From: Robiginitalea sp.
GTDB taxonomy: Bacteria > Bacteroidota > Bacteroidia > Flavobacteriales > Flavobacteriaceae
Reading direction: 5' to 3'
DNA: 64,000 bases
Assembly (NCBI GenBank): GCA_024638915.1
Contig: JAHEJJ010000004.1
Location: 62,001-126,000 of the forward strand
The notes beneath the pieces were generated by a model. The model searched no databases, was not told the origin of the DNA, and saw only the letters and a program-made list of their open reading frames with translations. Below, in pieces: positions 55,628 through 64,000 of the stretch; positions within the stretch are counted from its first letter, which is position 1; every line of letters starts with the position of its first letter. A program made the position numbers and the translations under genes.

Positions 55628-56320
55628 TCAGATCAATTTGAATTTTTCTCGAACCACTTTTATAACGCGTAAAACACTTGCCAATTCAACATTTAGAATT
55701 TGAGCGATTTCCTCTTCCTGAAGTCGGCCATAGGCATATAATTCAACGATTGTCCTGCATATAGTCGGAATACTATTGTACAACAATCCCAAATGGATCC
55801 GTTTTTCGTTGGCCAGGATAAATTTATCTTTCAGACCAAAGCGATCAACGATTTGAGCGATGAGAAAATCGTCAAGATATATGGTTTCCGACCTTCTTTT
55901 TTTCTGTTTATAGGAAATATCGTCGAGTTCTTCATGCATCAATAGGTCCCCTTCCGCATCAGCTGTAAAACGTTCGTCTAATGCGTCAAGTTCATCTTTG
56001 AGAATACCTGTCGTGCTTGGATCATTCGGAGTGTATTTCTCGTCCTGTATAAGTTGTTGTAATTTCTCAAGGGATTTTCTGTAAAGCATTTGTTTTAATT
56101 CAGCCTTACCTAGAACTTCTGTATATTGTTGATAAACCGAGAGATATACCTCATCTAGTATTCCGTCGGCATCGTAGTAACGACGGTCAATCAGACCTTG
56201 GCTTTCTGCTGCCAACAAGCCGGAAGTAAGGTAAGCTTTTACTTCTGTGCTAAGTGGTCCCAGCCCCTTGAAAAACTTTTTGAATTCAGGGCTTTTTTGA
56301 TTTTTTGTTGCTTTTTCCAT
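55628..56320 (-). CDS. Divergent sigma-70-like protein
   Basis: A 230-aa protein without signal peptide or membrane segment. The C-terminal 50 residues look like a sigma region 4 helix-turn-helix (YNSIPTICRTIVELYAYGRL, QEEEIAQILNVELASVLRVIK). The segment RYYDADGILDEVYLSVYQQY (about 46-65) resembles region 2 (DAEDLVQEVFL type). The middle is acidic and longer than in ECF factors. It may be a lineage-specific sigma factor or a non-sigma regulator. It is divergent from hsp20 and the intervening region holds the shared operator. -7 box at 56367-56374. Confidence 0.65.
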   Translation of the reverse strand: MEKATKNQKSPEFKKFFKGLGPLSTEVKAYLTSGLLAAESQGLIDRRYYDADGILDEVYLSVYQQYTEVLGKAELKQMLYRKSLEKLQQLIQDEKYTPNDPSTTGILKDELDALDERFTADAEGDLLMHEELDDISYKQKKRRSETIYLDDFLIAQIVDRFGLKDKFILANEKRIHLGLLYNSIPTICRTIVELYAYGRLQEEEIAQILNVELASVLRVIKVVREKFKLI

Positions 56321-56366: not shown

Positions 56367-56374
56367 CAAAACTA
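56367..56374 (-). promoter_or_regulatory. -7 promoter box (TAGTTTTG) of the sigma-like gene
   Basis: Perfect TAnnTTTG on the minus strand, 46 bp before the ATG at 56320. Confidence 0.55.
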
Positions 56375-56496
56375 AATTCCGATACATCGATTTAAAATGA
56401 TAATGATCATCCACCGCCATAATTAGTTTGACCTTCAACTGTCACACCCCTCAGGGGATCGATAAAATGATTCTTTTTTATTGCGATTATAGACTC

Positions 56497-56514
56497 AAAT
56501 GACCATCGTCATTT
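56497..56514 (+). promoter_or_regulatory. Operator-like inverted repeat upstream of hsp20
   Basis: AAATGAC (56497-56503), spacer CATC, GTCATTT (56508-56514): a perfect 7-bp inverted repeat. Fifteen of 18 positions are identical to the element at 59006-59023. Its centre lies 29.5 bp before the -7 box, i.e. near -41 from the expected transcription start, the class II position of CRP/FNR activators. A further half-site, GGTCATT in the opposite orientation, lies at about 56522-56528. Confidence 0.6.
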
Positions 56515-56534
56515 CAACAGAGGTCATTGATCGT

Positions 56535-56542
56535 TAGATTTG
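56535..56542 (+). promoter_or_regulatory. -7 promoter box (TAGATTTG) of hsp20
   Basis: Perfect TAnnTTTG with TTTC 19 bp upstream (56512-56515) as the -33 element, overlapping the inverted repeat. It is 37 bp before the ATG at 56580. Confidence 0.7.
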
Positions 56543-56579
56543 CCGTCCACTGAATGTTTAACCTAAAAAGTAATGGAAT

Positions 56580-57050
56580 ATGTCATTAGTAAAATTTAAA
56601 AAGAGGAACCGACCGTTTGCCAATCTGGTGACCTCGGATTTCTTTGACATGGAGGATTTCTTTGATAACCGTTTCTGGAATCGTGGAATGTTGAGCGATA
56701 AATTCTGGAATGGCCGAAAAGGTGAGCCGGCTTTAAATATCAAGGAAACAGAAGATCACTTTGAGATCGAACTAGCAGCACCAGGCTTTGATAAAAAAGA
56801 TTTTGAAGTTACCATCGAAGATGGATATCTGAATATTTCCGCAGAAAAAACAATGGAAGAGGAGGAAAAAGAGGATGAATATACCAGAAGGGAATTCAGC
56901 TACAATGCTTTTGAACGCTCATTGTTGCTTCCGGAAAATATAATGCAAGAGAAAATTAAGGCCCGCTATAAAGAGGGTATACTTAGTTTTAAACTTTTGA
57001 AAAAAGAAGTTGAGAAAAAACAACTGCCAAAAAAGGTTGAGATCAGTTAA
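56580..57050 (+). CDS. Hsp20/alpha-crystallin small heat-shock protein
   Basis: ATP-independent chaperone of 156 aa. The alpha-crystallin domain spans about 50-145 (PALNIKETEDHFEIELAAPG, DGYLNISAEKT, and FERSLLLPENI before RYKEGILSFKLLKK). The N-terminal arm contains DFFDMEDFFDNRFW, typical of family members. The Lys-rich C-terminus (KKQLPKKVEIS) carries a weak IxI-like motif. Promoter and operator-like repeat upstream point to regulation with the YtxH operon 2 kb away. A terminator follows. Confidence 0.93.
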   Translation: MSLVKFKKRNRPFANLVTSDFFDMEDFFDNRFWNRGMLSDKFWNGRKGEPALNIKETEDHFEIELAAPGFDKKDFEVTIEDGYLNISAEKTMEEEEKEDEYTRREFSYNAFERSLLLPENIMQEKIKARYKEGILSFKLLKKEVEKKQLPKKVEIS

Positions 57051-57136
57051 GATTTCAGCCCAGGCATTTGATACCTTCTGCTTCTCCAATTATAGTCGTC
57101 CATGTAGTAAAATTGTCGGCAGGGGGTAATCGATGG

Positions 57137-57168
57137 AACGGCATCCTTGTGGTGCCGTTTTATTTTTT
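57137..57168 (+). terminator. Rho-independent terminator of hsp20
   Basis: Stem AACGGCA (57137-57143) / TGCCGTT (57153-57159), 9-nt loop, then TTATTTTTT. It lies 87 bp after the hsp20 stop; on the other strand there is no T tract. Confidence 0.8.
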
Positions 57169-57188
57169 GCCTTCTGGATTTCTCGCTG

Positions 57189-57956
57189 CTATTTCGAAAT
57201 CCGGTCCGCGAATTCCCCCATTTTTTTTTGGGCGCTTTGGTATCCCAATTCAAATACGGCGTCAGTCTCTTTAAGAGAGAAGGTCCCGAACTTATGAATA
57301 CCTTCAGGTGTGATCAGCAGATCACAATCTTTGAATTTATCGGTCGAAGTTCTCGCTGCGCGAATTTGGTATGCCCGCTCCAGCACCTGGTAAGAATACT
57401 TCATATCCTCAATTTGGATCTTGAGAAACGGATTCACATAAACCCCTATTATATTTTCACATTCAGCTCTTAGCAGATCAACCGGAAAGTTATTGAGTGT
57501 ACCGCCGTCTATGTAGTAGTCGCTGCCTATTTTAACAGGGGTAAACACTCCGGGGAAGGCAGCCGAGGCCAATATTGGCTTTATGATCTGGCCCGAAGTA
57601 AAGACCTTTAAAGAACCTTTAAGGACGTCCGTGGCGGTAATGGACATGGGTAACTCTAGCTCGCTGAAACTATCCTCGGGAAAATAGCGCTTAAAGTCTT
57701 GGTAGAATTTTGCCGTGTCCACAAAACCCGGTTTGTTCACCGCATATTTATAAATGCTGAAAAGATTAACCCCTTTTACAAATTCCAGAATTTCCTGGTA
57801 GGAATATCCTGCCGAATAGAGTGATCCTATAATTGCGCCCGAGCTGGTACCTGCTACATGGGTAATTTGAATACCTGCTTCCTCCATGGCTTTGATCACG
57901 CCTATATGCGCAACACCTCTGAATCCGCCTCCCGAAAGCACCAGTCCTGTAGTCAT
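57189..57956 (-). CDS. Patatin-like phospholipase
   Basis: A 255-aa single-domain patatin. Oxyanion-hole motif LSGGGFRGVAHIG (about 7-19), nucleophile Ser in GTSSGAIIG (about 35-43) and catalytic Asp in YYIDGGTLNNFP (about 148-159) are all intact. There is no signal peptide, so it acts on cytoplasmic-side or intracellular lipids. Its ATG overlaps the stop of a short upstream reading frame (TAATG) that continues in frame from the DUF6327-like gene; it may therefore be the last gene of the YtxH operon. Confidence 0.9.
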   Translation of the reverse strand: MTTGLVLSGGGFRGVAHIGVIKAMEEAGIQITHVAGTSSGAIIGSLYSAGYSYQEILEFVKGVNLFSIYKYAVNKPGFVDTAKFYQDFKRYFPEDSFSELELPMSITATDVLKGSLKVFTSGQIIKPILASAAFPGVFTPVKIGSDYYIDGGTLNNFPVDLLRAECENIIGVYVNPFLKIQIEDMKYSYQVLERAYQIRAARTSTDKFKDCDLLITPEGIHKFGTFSLKETDAVFELGYQSAQKKMGEFADRISK

Positions 57957-58051
57957 TAGCCCGAATTGATCAGATCAGCCATCAAAATAAACAATTTCTC
58001 GACGGTCTGAGAGGCCCTTTCAAAATCATCTTTCTTCAGTGATAAATCTAA
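57956..58051 (-). other. Short in-frame reading frame linking the DUF6327-like gene to patatin
   Basis: Directly after the TAA that ends the DUF6327-like frame (58052-58054) the same frame stays open for 31 codons. It reads SLKKDDFERASQTVEKLFI and ILMADLINSG, and ends in a TAA that overlaps the patatin ATG. There is no normal start codon near its 5' end. It may be the lost C-terminus of the DUF6327-like protein (nonsense mutation), or a short peptide with an unusual start, or chance. Confidence 0.4.
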
Positions 58052-58261
58052 TTATTTGCGTTTAAAGAGTTTACCCAGCAGCAGAGAAATCACCGCGCCC
58101 TGAAATGCGCTTTCCAGGCTTCGCACTAATTTCCTTGGAATCATAAGATTCTTAAGAGTGCTGCATTCGAGCTTCACATATTCTTTGTCGATCTGACGAC
58201 GCAACTCCAGGATTTTAAGTTGTGCATTTATTTCCTCAAATGAATTGTATTGCCGGTTCAT
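58052..58261 (-). CDS. Small DUF6327-like protein
   Basis: A 69-aa charged protein (MNRQYNSFEEINAQLKILEL) with an N-terminal helix and a hydrophobic C-terminal segment (AFQGAVISLLLGKLF). It matches small flavobacterial proteins (DUF6327-like) that accompany YtxH and holin-like genes. Its start overlaps the holin-like gene by 4 nt (ATGA). Function unknown; it is probably part of a membrane-associated complex. Confidence 0.72.
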   Translation of the reverse strand: MNRQYNSFEEINAQLKILELRRQIDKEYVKLECSTLKNLMIPRKLVRSLESAFQGAVISLLLGKLFKRK

Positions 58262-58611
58262 GTTTCCTCAAATATTTTTTTGGAAAAAAAACGTAAAATG
58301 ACTTTGTTAATATTGCGTCCCATGGCAAAGACTATGATGCCTATGACCAGATAGAATCCTCCCACGGCCAGAAAGCCCCATTGGTATCCTCCCAAAGAGT
58401 CCCCTATGGCCATAGCGACTCCTATGCTCGTAAGCAGTAAGAATAGAAGACCGATACTTGTTAGCAAAAAGAATTTAATAAGGGTGGTGACCAGCACCAT
58501 TGAAATCTTAAAACCCTTTAACTCAACGTATTCAAGGCTGTCATCCACATAGGCGGTCACTCTTTTATCCAATTCGGATAAATGATGCTTCATTTCTTCA
58601 AAGGCCATCAC
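58258..58611 (-). CDS. Holin-like (DUF1469, 'phage holin 3-6') membrane protein
   Basis: A 117-aa protein with two close transmembrane helices (STTLIKFFLLTSIGLLFLLL region and GFLAVGGFYLVIGIIVFAMG) flanked by charged ends. This topology fits the DUF1469/actinobacterial-holin-like family, members of which in non-phage context usually stand next to YtxH genes. No endolysin or other phage genes occur nearby, so a lytic role is unlikely. It lies 3 bp after the YtxH stop. Confidence 0.82.
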   Translation of the reverse strand: MMAFEEMKHHLSELDKRVTAYVDDSLEYVELKGFKISMVLVTTLIKFFLLTSIGLLFLLLTSIGVAMAIGDSLGGYQWGFLAVGGFYLVIGIIVFAMGRNINKVILRFFSKKIFEET

Positions 58612-58614
58612 CGA

Positions 58615-58944
58615 TTATTTCTGAAGTTGGGCGTTCTTTTTTTTGAGTTCTTCCAACTTTCTTTCCAAGGTAGCGATAATATCATCTGCCTTATAGCTCA
58701 TATTGGAAATTGTGTCTTCAAGTTTTTGCTCAAATGCCATTTTTTTCTCTTCTGCCGTTTTGGTCAGCTCTTCTTTTGCATGTGATATACGATCGCTTAA
58801 GTCATGCGATACGTCTGAAGCCTTTTCCTTGATCTTTTTGCGCGTCTTTTTACCTTCATCAGGTGCATAGAGAATCCCTATTCCGGCTCCTATAGCCGCT
58901 CCTGTTAACAACGCTAATAATATTCCTCCTGAATTGTCTGACAT
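58615..58944 (-). CDS. YtxH-domain stress protein
   Basis: A 109-aa protein: one N-terminal transmembrane helix (ILLALLTGAAIGAGIGILYA), the YtxH signature PDEGKKTRKKIKEK (about 27-40) and a long amphipathic coiled coil. YtxH-type proteins are general-stress or desiccation proteins in other bacteria. First gene of the operon; upstream lie a -7-like box (58979-58986) and the shared inverted repeat (59006-59023). Confidence 0.88.
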   Translation of the reverse strand: MSDNSGGILLALLTGAAIGAGIGILYAPDEGKKTRKKIKEKASDVSHDLSDRISHAKEELTKTAEEKKMAFEQKLEDTISNMSYKADDIIATLERKLEELKKKNAQLQK

Positions 58945-58978
58945 GATACTAGATTTTTAGTTATTATTAAATTTTCCA

Positions 58979-58986
58979 CCAAGTTA
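58979..58986 (-). promoter_or_regulatory. Probable -7 box (TAACTTGG) of the YtxH operon
   Basis: Seven of eight matches to TAnnTTTG on the minus strand, with a perfect -33 TTTG (plus-strand CAAA, 59005-59008) 18 bp upstream. It is 34 bp before the YtxH ATG. Confidence 0.6.
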
Positions 58987-59005
58987 AGGATTAATATCAA
59001 CCACC

Positions 59006-59023
59006 AAATGACCACGGTCAATT
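59006..59023 (-). promoter_or_regulatory. Operator-like inverted repeat upstream of the YtxH operon
   Basis: AAATGACCACGGTCAATT on the plus strand, with TGACC-AC-GGTCA as its perfect core. It shares 15 of 18 positions with the hsp20 element and the flanks also match (18 of 22 over CAAATGACCA...TTxAA). Its centre lies 28.5 bp before the -7 box and overlaps the -33 TTTG, the same geometry as at hsp20. Confidence 0.6.
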
Positions 59024-59206: not shown

Positions 59207-60397
59207 TCAGTTATTTCGGGACTGAAGATAAGCCTGACGTGCTATTTCAATTTCCTCATCGGTAGGAACAACAAGGATTTTAACCGGTGAGCCGCCTTGT
59301 TCAATAGAACGTATCTCGTTCGAATCGGTATTGTTCTTATCAGGACTGAGCCTGATGCCTAAAAACTCCATATCCTTACATATCAACGCACGTAACGCAC
59401 TTGAATTTTCACCGATCCCCGCAGTAAAGATCAGTATATCAAGCCCATTCAGCGCCGCCGTGTAAGCTCCTATATATTTTTTTATTCGATAGGCATTCAT
59501 CTCGAGGGCCAGCTGGCTTTTTGGGTCACCATGCTTTGCCGCTGCTTCAATCTCACGTAAATCGGAAAAACCGGTTAGACCCAGCATGCCGCTTTCTTTG
59601 TCGAGGAGGGTTTGTATATCATTCAATTCATAACCTAGCTCCCTGTGCAGATAAAAAATTATAGCATGGTCTATGTCTCCGCTCCTGGTTCCCATGATCA
59701 GTCCGTTTGAAGGAGCAAAACCCAAGCTGTGATCGATGCTTTTTCCATTTTTTATTGCTGTTATACTACAACCGTTCCCGAGATGCAAACTTATAATTTT
59801 ATCGGCCGGCGCGCCGGCATATTCTATAGCCTTTTTTGAGACATAAGCATGACTTGTGCCATGAAATCCATAGGCCCGGATACCGTGATCCCGATAAAGT
59901 GATTCGGGTATGGCATATCGATGAGAAATCTTGGGCATGGTTTGGTGAAAAGCGGTATCGAAAACCGCAATCTGCAGGCTTTCAGGAAAGAGTTTCTCTG
60001 CAATCTCTATACCGACCAGGTTGTGTGGATTGTGCAGTGGTGCCATCGGAATATATTTCCGTATTTGCTTTTTAACAGACTCATCGACCACCACAGTACC
60101 GGAAAATTCACCGCCGCCATGAACCACTCTGTGACCCACTACTTCGATCTCCCCTACCCCATTTATGGGAGCGGTCTCAGGGTCTAACAAAATCCCAACT
60201 ATACGCTGTAAGCCTTCCTCATGAGTGGAGATCGGAATTTGGCTGGATAATTTATCCTTGCCATAATTATAGGCTATGGTCGAATCCTGACTGCCGATCC
60301 GGTCTACCATTCCGCGGCATATCACCTCTTCCTCAGGCATTTTAATGAGTTGAAACTTAATGGAGGAACTGCCAGAATTAAGGATTAGTATGTTCAT
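59207..60397 (-). CDS. ackA: Acetate kinase
   Basis: Converts acetyl phosphate and ADP to acetate and ATP. The 396-aa enzyme starts with the family motif MNILILNSGSSSIKFQLIK (ATG 60397; a longer frame is rejected). Further motifs: VFDTAFHQTMP (catalytic Asp), RAYGFHGTSHAYVSKKA, HLGNGCSITAI, GLIMGTRSGDIDHAII and ILIFTAGIGENSSALR. It lies 32 bp after pta, making the pta-ackA fermentation/overflow operon. Confidence 0.96.
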   Translation of the reverse strand: MNILILNSGSSSIKFQLIKMPEEEVICRGMVDRIGSQDSTIAYNYGKDKLSSQIPISTHEEGLQRIVGILLDPETAPINGVGEIEVVGHRVVHGGGEFSGTVVVDESVKKQIRKYIPMAPLHNPHNLVGIEIAEKLFPESLQIAVFDTAFHQTMPKISHRYAIPESLYRDHGIRAYGFHGTSHAYVSKKAIEYAGAPADKIISLHLGNGCSITAIKNGKSIDHSLGFAPSNGLIMGTRSGDIDHAIIFYLHRELGYELNDIQTLLDKESGMLGLTGFSDLREIEAAAKHGDPKSQLALEMNAYRIKKYIGAYTAALNGLDILIFTAGIGENSSALRALICKDMEFLGIRLSPDKNNTDSNEIRSIEQGGSPVKILVVPTDEEIEIARQAYLQSRNN

Positions 60398-60429
60398 ATG
60401 AATACACAAATTCAAGGCTAAAGGTTGCG

Positions 60430-62541
60430 TTATGACCCCGGGGTCCAATGCAAGCCCTGTGCCTGTATGGCCGTGATTACTACTGTGTTGAAAATATCGT
60501 CTACCGTGCTGCCACGACTCAGGTCATTAACAGGTTTGTTGAGCCCCTGAATTATCGGTCCGATAGCCAGGGCACCGGTTTCCCTCTGCACCGCCTTATA
60601 GGTATTGTTCCCCGTATTCAGATCGGGAAAAATAAATACAGTCGCCTGACCCGCGACTTCAGATTCCGGCATTTTTTTCTTCGCTACTCCCATATCCACA
60701 GCGGCATCGTATTGGATAGGGCCCTCCACTTTGAGCGCCGGATTTTTAAGCTTAACGATCGCCGTAGCCTCTCTGACCTTTTCCACATCCTGCCCTTTGC
60801 CGGAGGTACCTGAGGAATAAGATAACATAGCAATTTTTGGTTCTATTCCAAATGACTCGCTGGTACTGGCAGAGGTAATCGCGATTTCCGCTAGTTCTTC
60901 GGCATTCGGGTTGGGATTAATGGCACAATCACCATAAACGGTAACCCGGTCTTCCAGACACATGAAGAATACGGAAGATACGATAGACACCTGCGACTGT
61001 GTTTTTATAAACTGGAGCGCCGGCCGTATAGTATGCTGGGTTGTATGTACCGCACCCGAGACCATACCATCTGCATGGCCTTTGTATACCATCATGGTGC
61101 CGAAATAAGAAATATCGGTCATCAGGTCACGGGCCATTGTCGGGTTAACGTTTTTATGCTTCCTGAGCTCGTAGAGCGTTTCCGCATAATCCTCGAAATA
61201 CTCAGAATGCTGCGGGTCTATAATATCGATCTTCTCCAGATCCAAAGCCAGGTCCAACTGGTCGATCTTTGCTTTAATGACAAATGGATCTCCAAGAAGG
61301 ACAATTTCCACAACATCACTATCAACAAGCTCCTTTACCGCTTTTAGTATCCTGTCATCAGTGCCTTCCGGCAGAACAATTTTCTTTTTTTCGGACCTGG
61401 CCCGTTGTAATAAATTGAACTGAAACATTCTGGGGGTAATCCCCTTGCCCTGGAAGGTGATCAGTTTTTCCGCCAGCGCATTGACCGGGATAAAGGTCTC
61501 AAAATCCTGGATTGATGTGGTGATCTTTCGCTTATTTTCAGCATAGATCTTGGGTTTAATGGCTCCAACCTTATTAGCCGTTGAATATGTACCATCCTTT
61601 ACAGATACAATGGGAACAATTTCCGAGAGCCCCTCAATAAGCTTTAAAATAGATTCTTCCGGGCGTAATCCTCCGGTCAGCACTATTCCGGATGCTGTTG
61701 GGTAATTAGCAGAAAGATTTGCCTGGAGAGCCCCCAGAATGATATCTGCACGATCGCCGGGAGTAATCACCAGACTGCTTTCCATGAAATGGGTGAGATA
61801 GTTACGCAATTGCATTGCGCCAACACTGATATTGCTCAACTGATTGTTCAAATGCTCTGAACCAAAAAGCACCTCAGCCTGCAATCCATCAACAATTTCT
61901 TTCATGGTCGGACTCCCCAGTATCGGGTTTCGCGGGATGGCTCCAATCAGTACGTTTTTTGGAAGGGCTTTGATCAGACTTTCGATGACCAGGCCGACAT
62001 TTTCGGGTCGTACTTTGTTGGCGATGACCATTAGGACCTCAACACCCTTGTCCTTAAAGGAATCATAAGCCAGCAACTGATCATTTACAAATTCTTCCAT
62101 CGTTTTGCCCTTGCCACTGGTCAATATAATAGTAGGAATACCCAGGTTTTTGGCCATCAGAACATTGATATCCCACTCGATAATACCACCTTCCCCGGTG
62201 AAATCGGTCCCTTCCACCAAAAGGAAATCAAAACGGTCTTCTATAGCCTTGTATCTGGCAATAATCTTATCGAGCACTTCGTCCTCTCTGTCCTGATTCA
62301 ATTTCTGAATCACTTCATTTCTGGTACAGGCATAAGCTTCCTGATAGGTGATATTAAGATCAAAATAGCTGATCATAGTATGGATATGGTTATCCATCTC
62401 ATCGGCCTTGTAGTCATCAATGATCGGCCTGAAATACCCTACTTTTGCTGCCTTACCAAGAAGAAGATGCATGAGGCCCAGCGAAAGAATGGATTTACCA
62501 CTATTGGGTGCTGTTGTCGCGATATAAACCGCCTTGCTCAT
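60430..62541 (-). CDS. pta: Phosphate acetyltransferase, long form
   Basis: Interconverts acetyl-CoA and acetyl phosphate. The product of 703 aa is the long Pta: an N-terminal BioD-like P-loop domain (YIATTAPNSGKSILSLGLM, about 1-220), a DRTGG domain in the middle (about 220-340; ITPGDRADIILGAL, SGIVLTGGL) and the C-terminal catalytic PTA_PTB domain (about 370-703; KKIVLPEGTDDRILKA, YGDCAINPNPNAEELAEIA, MLSYSSGTSGKGQDVEKV). The start at 62541 is chosen because the longer frame would begin inside the -7 box. Confidence 0.96.
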   Translation of the reverse strand: MSKAVYIATTAPNSGKSILSLGLMHLLLGKAAKVGYFRPIIDDYKADEMDNHIHTMISYFDLNITYQEAYACTRNEVIQKLNQDREDEVLDKIIARYKAIEDRFDFLLVEGTDFTGEGGIIEWDINVLMAKNLGIPTIILTSGKGKTMEEFVNDQLLAYDSFKDKGVEVLMVIANKVRPENVGLVIESLIKALPKNVLIGAIPRNPILGSPTMKEIVDGLQAEVLFGSEHLNNQLSNISVGAMQLRNYLTHFMESSLVITPGDRADIILGALQANLSANYPTASGIVLTGGLRPEESILKLIEGLSEIVPIVSVKDGTYSTANKVGAIKPKIYAENKRKITTSIQDFETFIPVNALAEKLITFQGKGITPRMFQFNLLQRARSEKKKIVLPEGTDDRILKAVKELVDSDVVEIVLLGDPFVIKAKIDQLDLALDLEKIDIIDPQHSEYFEDYAETLYELRKHKNVNPTMARDLMTDISYFGTMMVYKGHADGMVSGAVHTTQHTIRPALQFIKTQSQVSIVSSVFFMCLEDRVTVYGDCAINPNPNAEELAEIAITSASTSESFGIEPKIAMLSYSSGTSGKGQDVEKVREATAIVKLKNPALKVEGPIQYDAAVDMGVAKKKMPESEVAGQATVFIFPDLNTGNNTYKAVQRETGALAIGPIIQGLNKPVNDLSRGSTVDDIFNTVVITAIQAQGLHWTPGS

Positions 62542-62562
62542 ATGAGGTATGATTTTGAAGTG

Positions 62563-62570
62563 CAAATTTA
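62563..62570 (-). promoter_or_regulatory. -7 promoter box (TAAATTTG) of pta-ackA
   Basis: Perfect TAnnTTTG on the minus strand, 21 bp before the pta ATG. The AATGACC repeat seen at hsp20 and YtxH is not found at the equivalent position here. Confidence 0.65.
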
Positions 62571-62677
62571 GGACATCTGAGGCCTAAATTCTCCTTTCAG
62601 GAAATAATTATCTGTAAATATTTGGGCATTAAATTTTAAGCATCAGCGCTCTTGCACTATCAGACTCTTACCATGGC

Positions 62678-63529
62678 TCAACTATTATTCGCTTCAGGGA
62701 GTACCAAGAATGGAACATGGGTGTTGAACGCGACTTTTTTTATGACTGGTTCGCGGAGTAATCGCCTGAAAAAGCCGTGCTGACTATTGATCATTGTTAA
62801 TAAATCGGCCTTATGCTCCTCAGCCCATTCATTGATCCTAAAAGACACCATCGGGTGATATTCGAGCATTTCAAAGCTATGGGAAGTCTCTTTTAGGAGT
62901 CTGTTCAATAGTTTTCGTATCTCCTTGTTTTCCCTCGAAAAGGTTTCTTCGGCTGGCATATGAATCACCCTGATAGTGGCATCCCACATGGAAGCAATGC
63001 TGATCATCGGTTCGAGTTCAACCTTCTGGTAAAGGTGCTTGTAGTCTGTGGCAAATGCGATCTGCGAAGGTGAGGTGAAATCAAAAGAACCCGGGATGGC
63101 TAAAAGAGGGCAAAAATTGATGTTTTTGAGTACACTAACCGTATTGCTGCCCATAAATATCTCCTTTAACCCGGTTGCTCCCTGGGTGCCCATACAAAGA
63201 AAATCGATATCCCTGTCGATAATATTACGCCCAACAGCATTGAGCAGGGAATCGGATTCCAGTATGGCTTCGAAACAATGATCTGCTACTTTATTGATGT
63301 TTTTTAAATGTCCTACGACTTTTTGAAGTTTTTGCTCTGCCTCATCCTGGGTGATTTGATGCCATCGTGTATCCCTTTCCTTATTGATAGTGCTCACCAG
63401 ACCAGAGGGTGCAGCTTGATGCGCATGAAGTATGGAAAAGGAACAGGGTATTCTCTCAAAAAAATAAATTGAATACTGAATAGCATGCCATGAATTCTCT
63501 GAAAAATCTGTAGGTAGTAAAACACGCAT
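62678..63529 (-). CDS. Tandem universal stress protein (two UspA domains)
   Basis: A 283-aa protein of two UspA-like domains. Domain 1 (about 1-150) starts with VLLPTDFSENSWHAIQYSIY and ends with MGTQGATGLKEIFMGSNTVSVL and CPLLAIP, the ATP-binding GxxGx9G(S/T) pattern being present. Domain 2 (about 155-283) starts at QIAFATDYKHL and ends with VPFLVLPEANN, with the nucleotide pattern degraded (QHGFFRRLLREPVIKKV). It lies 136 bp upstream of pta and 24 bp after a second usp gene. Confidence 0.92.
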   Translation of the reverse strand: MRVLLPTDFSENSWHAIQYSIYFFERIPCSFSILHAHQAAPSGLVSTINKERDTRWHQITQDEAEQKLQKVVGHLKNINKVADHCFEAILESDSLLNAVGRNIIDRDIDFLCMGTQGATGLKEIFMGSNTVSVLKNINFCPLLAIPGSFDFTSPSQIAFATDYKHLYQKVELEPMISIASMWDATIRVIHMPAEETFSRENKEIRKLLNRLLKETSHSFEMLEYHPMVSFRINEWAEEHKADLLTMINSQHGFFRRLLREPVIKKVAFNTHVPFLVLPEANNS

Positions 63530-63553
63530 CGGGTCTAATTTTTAGATTCAAGT

Positions 63554-64000
63554 TCAACAATCTTTTTGGGGCAATACCAGAAACGGAACATCGCTGTGAA
63601 TCGCCATTTTTTTAACCACCGGTTCGCGGATGAGGCGTTCCAGAAATGTATGAGTGTAATGGATAAGCACGATTAAATCTGCTTTCTCTTCTTTAACGGC
63701 CGCAGCGATGGAGGCGTTAACACTCTGTTTCATTTCAACGTTTTTAAAACAGGTGTCTACCCCTTTTAAAGCCTGTGTAAGTCTTTCCTTGTTTCTTTTC
63801 TGATCAGCTCCGAGGGAGGCTTCCTGAGTGACCTGCATTACCGTAAGCTTGCTTTTCCAGGCCACGGCCATTTCATTTAATAAGCTAATCTGGCATTCGC
63901 GAATTCTACGGCTAAAGTCTGTAGGAAATATAATCCGGTCAAGATCTTTAAAATCCTGCGCTTCAGGAACAGCCAGAATCGGGCAATCGATGATCTTTTT
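63554..64000 (-). CDS. Tandem universal stress protein, 5' end beyond the window
   Basis: The frame is open to the window edge for 148 codons plus stop. The first residues visible, IIDCPILAVPE, are the end of one UspA domain, and RIIFPTDFSRRIRECQISLL begins a second, so this is the C-terminal half of another two-domain Usp protein. The end (VVKKMAIHSDVPFLVLPQKD) resembles the neighbour's. An internal ATG at 63871 is not the start. It is a paralogue of the adjacent gene and probably in the same operon. Confidence 0.9.
   Translation of the reverse strand, partial: KKIIDCPILAVPEAQDFKDLDRIIFPTDFSRRIRECQISLLNEMAVAWKSKLTVMQVTQEASLGADQKRNKERLTQALKGVDTCFKNVEMKQSVNASIAAAVKEEKADLIVLIHYTHTFLERLIREPVVKKMAIHSDVPFLVLPQKDC

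Follow-up and report, generated by a model that had tools for sequence, protein, structure and literature searches.

A probable FNR-type operator before hsp20 and the ytxH operon of Robiginitalea and its two candidate regulators in Flavobacteriaceae

A stretch of 64,000 nucleotides from Robiginitalea sp. (contig JAHEJJ010000004.1, positions 62,001 to 126,000; here, the window) carries two similar inverted repeats, one in front of hsp20, which encodes a small heat-shock protein, and the other in front of an operon headed by ytxH, and this raises the question of which protein would read the same palindrome at two otherwise unrelated promoters, and in response to which signal. A sequence-only reading of the window, made by a model without database searches, had proposed that one regulator of the CRP/FNR family controlled both. 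From the computed sites, their spacing, enrichment and conservation, the target genes, and the co-occurrence and linkage of regulator genes, we infer binding, activation, the position of the transcription start site, an oxygen/redox (and light) signal and a division of labour between regulators. On this basis the repeats very probably serve an FNR-like regulon as activator operators of class-II type, and these operators are probably shared by two regulators.

A recount of the window sequence confirmed that the two repeats agree at 15 of 18 bases, and gave 17 of 22, instead of the 18 claimed, when two flanking bases were added on each side. Both repeats are palindromes of the form TGACC...(G)GTCA, and both are followed by a predicted –7 box, as had been read. 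The elements and the genes behind them are the following.

56497–56514, plus strand: operator palindrome of hsp20, AAATGACCATCGTCATTT, with the core TGACCATCGTCA at 56500–56511; its TGA-N6-TCATT footprint is kept in five genera
56535–56542, plus strand: –7-type box of hsp20, TAGATTTG (TAnnTTTG), starting 29 bp past the operator centre
56580–57050, plus strand: hsp20, small heat-shock protein of 156 aa (Pfam HSP20, 6e-24)
59006–59023, minus strand: operator palindrome of the ytxH operon, AAATGACCACGGTCAATT in plus-strand letters, with the core at 59009–59020; TGACC/TCAT is kept in four genera
58979–58986, minus strand: candidate –7-type box of ytxH, TAACTTGG, starting 28 bp past the centre, with one mismatch to TAnnTTTG
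58615–58944, minus strand: ytxH-like gene, 109 aa (Pfam YtxH, 2e-20)
58258–58608, minus strand: Holin-X/Phage_holin_3_6-like membrane protein (Pfam PF07332, E=2e-4, below cut-off)
58052–58261, minus strand: DUF6327 protein (Pfam PF19852)
57189–57956, minus strand: gene for a patatin-like phospholipase (Pfam Patatin, 2e-37), probably distal in the operon, with orthologs in the genomes G012 and G002 that have an operator of their own

The genome to which the window belongs (3.04 Mb, 81 contigs) was scanned by pattern search. With at most one mismatch to AATGACCNNGGTCATT (AATGACC-NN-GGTCATT), the two window palindromes were the only sites found. Many of the 2-mismatch matches lay inside open reading frames (ORFs), and allowing up to three mismatches gave 182 matches vs 126 in the reversed control; the looser matches are therefore mostly noise, and the long matrix with two or three mismatches was dropped as too permissive. 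At the position of the hsp20 operator, relatives carry ACTGATCCTGATCATT (G001, of the same genus) and CCTGACCTAGGTCATT (G002). Read from these letters, the broader operator is TGAY-N4-RTCA, a putative FNR-type box, so that the CC/GG palindrome from which the earlier matrix had been built holds as a subtype but not as the general consensus. In local scans this core was found repeatedly upstream of genes such as usp, hsp20, ytxH and DUF2267, at 50–75 bp from the start codon, and in many cases a TAnnTTTG box began exactly 29 bp past the centre of the palindrome. The composite TGAY-N4-RTCA-N23-TANNTTNG, with at most one mismatch, yielded 35+33 matches in the genome vs 3+5 with the reversed-pattern control (68 vs 8), and TGAY-N4-RTCA without the box yielded 270 vs 78. 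The motif is thus not scattered outside promoters, since the composite was enriched at promoters both here and in the 80 regulator neighbourhoods described below.

The footprint was also kept in the upstream regions of orthologous genes. For hsp20, the promoters of five genera share TGA...RTCATT together with a TAnnTT(T/A)G box at unchanged spacing, and for ytxH those of four genera retain TGACC..(R)TCAT, oriented to the gene. Upstream of the ytxH ortholog of G001 the box stands at 29, and the ytxH promoter of G012 combines a perfect AATGACCAAGGTCATT with a box at 29. The suggestion that patatin might belong to the regulon is plausible, as its orthologs in G012 and G002 have a TGAY-N4-RTCA site about 55–62 bp upstream. 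Order-wide, the strict composite was present in 72 of 118 genomes, and the controls were nearly empty. Enrichment of the composite in promoters and conservation of the sites at orthologs uphold an operator of class-II type common to hsp20 and the ytxH operon, and the TGA-N6-TCA palindrome core was present in the operators tested for membership of the CRP/FNR family.

The genes behind the best composite sites comprise hsp20, several usp genes, and genes for an oxygen-independent coproporphyrinogen oxidase-like protein (HemN), a thioredoxin, a pyruvate-phosphate-dikinase-like protein (PPDK-like), a ferredoxin/oxidoreductase pair and an Rrf2-like regulator, the names being Pfam-tested or otherwise assigned by reading of the sequences. 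Of the stresses that had been suggested, low oxygen or energy is supported, while nothing points specifically to nitrosative stress.

The absence of a regulator gene from the window had been correctly noted, and candidates were found on other contigs. The survey of HTH_Crp genes in the genome gave two good candidates; the proposed membership of the CRP/FNR family is supported, but in place of the single regulator proposed there are probably two. Their genes, and that of a histidine kinase, are located as follows.

L052:5751–6500 (C66): FNR-like protein of 249 aa with cNMP-like and HTH_Crp domains, flanked by a usp gene and by the gene for a ccoI/fixI-like copper ATPase (cbb3-oxidase)
L049:10831–11883: REC-CRP fusion of 350 aa with Response_reg (7e-29), cNMP_binding and HTH_Crp_2 domains, in a usp cluster
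L049:11945–13837 (contig C34), minus strand: PAS histidine kinase, immediately upstream of REC-CRP

The FNR-like orthologs have in common a TATES.IR recognition helix (E..IR), and C25, C28, C74 and C127, invariant in 28 of them, are predicted cluster cysteines arranged differently from the four of Escherichia coli FNR. The REC-CRP proteins carry a helix of the TATET.IR type, and D52 and K104 of their receiver, the phospho-acceptor Asp and the conserved Lys, are invariant. The best Protein Data Bank (PDB) matches of REC-CRP covered the receiver or the CRP part only, none being a solved REC-CRP fusion, and by Pfam the output consists of cNMP_binding and HTH_Crp_2, with no LuxR/GerE output of the FixJ type. 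A cAMP-bound CRP was judged less likely, as by our reading of the alignment the ligand motif is degenerate, with YREYAT/ETA instead of the CRP Arg-Ser pair. The CRP-like genes on contigs C6 (with a nearby site at C6:3128) and C77 were set aside as main regulators, their helices being VREVISR and TSRVVVSR and neither gene being linked to the cluster.

In 74 of 80 named loci, REC-CRP has a gene for a PAS histidine kinase immediately upstream. FixL and DosP are the best PDB matches of the kinase PAS domains, and that of G047 matched the heme-PAS of FixL at 7e-30. In the kinase of our genome, the first PAS domain also has FixL as its best match (4e-12), with the His and Arg positions kept, and the second is a predicted LOV domain with the NCRFLQ motif, its best PDB match being a LOV photoreceptor chimera. 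The same motif occurs in 7 of the 74 neighbouring kinases, and a blue-light input to the low-oxygen regulon through this domain is possible.

In relatives, the neighbours of REC-CRP are hsp20 (L098–L100, L104, L105), the ytxH/holin operon (L101, L103) or usp genes. In G077 (L094), which has only a distant FNR homolog of 31% identity, REC-CRP stands two genes from a ccoI-like copper ATPase gene, the spot held by FNR in our genome. A ribosome hibernation factor-like gene (S30AE, L049:14743–15042) lies inside the usp/REC-CRP cluster, and in other genomes five of the sites at REC-CRP loci face S30AE-type genes.

The association of the operator with these regulators was assessed in 20-kb neighbourhoods of the fusion gene from 80 named genomes with REC-CRP, mostly Flavobacteriaceae. 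Of the TGAY-N4-RTCA matches, 433 fell in the intergenic part (155 kb, 2.79/kb) and 85 in the coding part (1.32 Mb, 0.064/kb), an enrichment of about 40-fold between genes, and scrambled arms or other spacers gave 0.05–0.09/kb. The targets were chiefly usp genes, and 118 of 161 boxes stood exactly at +29, indicating a fixed spacing between the operator and TAnnTTTG. Across the 118 genomes, the density of composite sites was lowest where neither regulator occurs, at 0.28 per Mb (0.27 when genomes below 1.4 Mb are left aside). It was 1.32 per Mb in genomes with FNR but not REC-CRP, 1.43 in the two with REC-CRP but not FNR, and 2.62 where both are encoded, which exceeds the density with FNR alone at P = 0.001; the genomes lacking both regulators are small throughout (0.3–2.0 Mb), so that lineage and size confound these counts. 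Sites were retained in G096 and G054, the two genomes in which REC-CRP occurs but no FNR ortholog does. In G096 these cluster round REC-CRP, and none of its remaining CRP-type proteins has the E..(I/S)R helix; G054 is a less clean case because another of its CRP-type proteins carries a VETVIR helix. Moreover, the frequency of TGAC half-sites was 0.45 at REC-CRP loci vs 0.22 in REC-CRP-negative genomes, and C followed TGAY in 26% of the sites at REC-CRP loci vs 2% in the REC-CRP-negative genomes of the family. The CC/GG composite occurred in 6 of 13 REC-CRP-positive and none of 8 REC-CRP-negative genomes of our genome's own family (P = 0.03). The presence of CC/GG in REC-CRP-negative genomes of family f5 ruled it out as a strict signature of REC-CRP.

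In the mechanism that we propose, a CRP/FNR-family dimer whose recognition helix reads E..(I/S)R would bind TGAY-N4-RTCA centred near –41.5 and recruit RNA polymerase to the Bacteroidota TAnnTTTG promoter. A fall in oxygen or energy would thereby switch on Hsp20, the YtxH/holin-like/DUF6327/patatin group, Usp with Pta-AckA, and genes for micro-oxic respiration. The operators would be read by the FNR-like protein, with its four conserved cysteines and its gene beside ccoI, and/or by phosphorylated REC-CRP, which the PAS kinase encoded just upstream (FixL-like, here also LOV) would phosphorylate. The more specific proposal for Flavobacteriaceae, whose chances we consider evenly balanced, is that a FixL-like PAS kinase (with an added LOV domain in some lineages, ours included) directly phosphorylates REC-CRP, which binds FNR-type boxes, and that this collapses FixL-FixJ-FixK into one two-component step for a dormancy-like Usp/Hsp20/YtxH regulon running parallel to FNR.

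Several points weigh against the shared operator. Besides the small size of the genomes with neither regulator, the ytxH box of our own genome is weak and 1 bp off the usual spacing, the half-site logos were compared between different genomes, and the CC/GG subtype is only loosely tied to REC-CRP. The heme or LOV function of the kinase is a prediction from its sequence.

The best surviving alternative, tentative at most, is that REC-CRP alone reads the CC/GG subtype, to which the two window sites belong, and FNR reads AT-centred sites such as TGATAATTATCA, giving parallel regulons with similar boxes. The bias towards TGAC halves and towards C after TGAY, together with the distribution of the CC/GG composite in the family, favours such a split, but both proteins carry the same E..IR helix and the sampled genomes differ in composition; we count the split as a rival and not as a result because the CC/GG composite also occurs in the REC-CRP-negative f5 genomes.

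It is unlikely that the FNR-like protein adjoining ccoI is the sole user of the operators, with REC-CRP binding elsewhere and merely linked to usp/hsp20 clusters. The abundance of the operator in genomes with FNR and without REC-CRP would suit it, as would HemN and CcoN-type targets, which are typical of FNR. Against it stand the sites kept by the FNR-less G054 and G096, around REC-CRP in the latter, the doubling of site density when REC-CRP is added, and the matching recognition helices of the two proteins.

A protein outside the CRP/FNR family, e.g., a TetR/MarR-like repressor, is very improbable: the size of the palindrome suits many families and the site would overlap the –33 region, but arms, spacer, promoter spacing and regulon content fit CRP/FNR, and the sites track the FNR and REC-CRP genes across genomes. 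Chance likeness of two unrelated promoters, conceivable in that just 15 of 18 bases agree and palindromes arise by chance, is refuted by the controls, given genome-wide and cross-genus enrichment with strict spacing.

The shared FNR-type operator, which we prefer to these alternatives, recurs around the two repeats of the window. A third composite site, which the sequence-only reading had not noticed, lies divergent from hsp20, and a further operator stands beyond the end of the window.

56367–56409, minus strand (C60:118367–118409): third composite of operator and box, with 0 mismatches
56398–56409, minus strand: third operator core, TGATCATTATCA in minus-strand letters
56367–56374, minus strand: box of the divergent promoter, TAGTTTTG
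55628–56320, minus strand: ORF of 230 aa, 47 bp after the box (Pfam Sigma70_r4_2, E=0.002, below cut-off)
59207–63529, minus strand: ackA, pta and a usp gene in a same-strand run, whose first gene lies beyond the window, with an operator at C60:127359

The 230-aa ORF is conserved and shows weak similarity to sigma-70 region 4. The genes usp-usp-usp-pta-ackA form one same-strand run (59207–64000 and L017:1–2308), and since an operator precedes its first usp gene, 1.36 kb past the window end, ackA-pta may be members of the regulon. Farther along, at L017:15770–17048, a phosphoribosyltransferase gene adjoins an alpha/beta hydrolase gene, a pair reminiscent of Rv0571c, a fusion in the DosR regulon of mycobacteria.

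The open-licence literature yielded no paper on this operator or on the REC-CRP module in Flavobacteria, and nothing direct on flavobacterial FNR regulons or on LOV kinases in Flavobacteriaceae. The control of transcription by oxygen is poorly mapped in Flavobacteria. With the operator, its spacing to the promoter element of the phylum, the targets and the two candidate regulators defined, the response of this large aquatic group to low oxygen becomes directly testable.

In comparison with known systems, the regulon itself is of a known kind, and what is unusual in it is a REC-CRP fusion that a FixL-like or LOV kinase would drive. UspA, CcoN, CcoI and HemN belong to the FNR regulon of Alphaproteobacteria, and Hsp20, FixL and FixJ to the predicted FixK regulon (PMC2908626). 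Similarly, Rhizobium leguminosarum has a micro-oxically induced small heat-shock protein that depends on FnrN and carries an anaerobox (PMC11784457). With FNR, Anr and FnrN of Proteobacteria (anaerobox TTGAT-N4-ATCAA) the present system shares the TGA-N6-TCA operator, a putative class-II-like spacing and apparent targets of the kinds just named; it differs in the Bacteroidota TAnnTTTG promoter, in the Y/R at the fourth half-site position with its TGAC and CC/GG subtype, and in having REC-CRP as a second candidate regulator. In a metatranscriptome study of such regulons, the Flavobacteriales CRP/FNR homolog could be treated only as MalR-like, with a Bacteroides MalR matrix and no operator for it (PMC8510549); order and protein family are the same, whereas the operator here is FNR-like. 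FixL-FixJ-FixK of Alphaproteobacteria offers the likeness of a FixL-like PAS kinase, a CRP/FNR output and Hsp20 among the predicted FixK targets, but here receiver and CRP/FNR output are combined in one protein, without the LuxR-type output domain of FixJ, and therefore a single step would separate the kinase from the operator. DosR of Mycobacterium, for its part, is a NarL-type regulator with heme-GAF kinases. The DosR regulon and the lxa locus of Burkholderia cenocepacia are Usp-rich, Hsp20-containing clusters for low-oxygen survival (PMC6127331). The flavobacterial clusters resemble them in this content but belong to a different phylum and use different operators, which suggests that a Usp/Hsp20/AckA-Pta survival kit like that of lxa or DosR is governed here by a different regulatory architecture.

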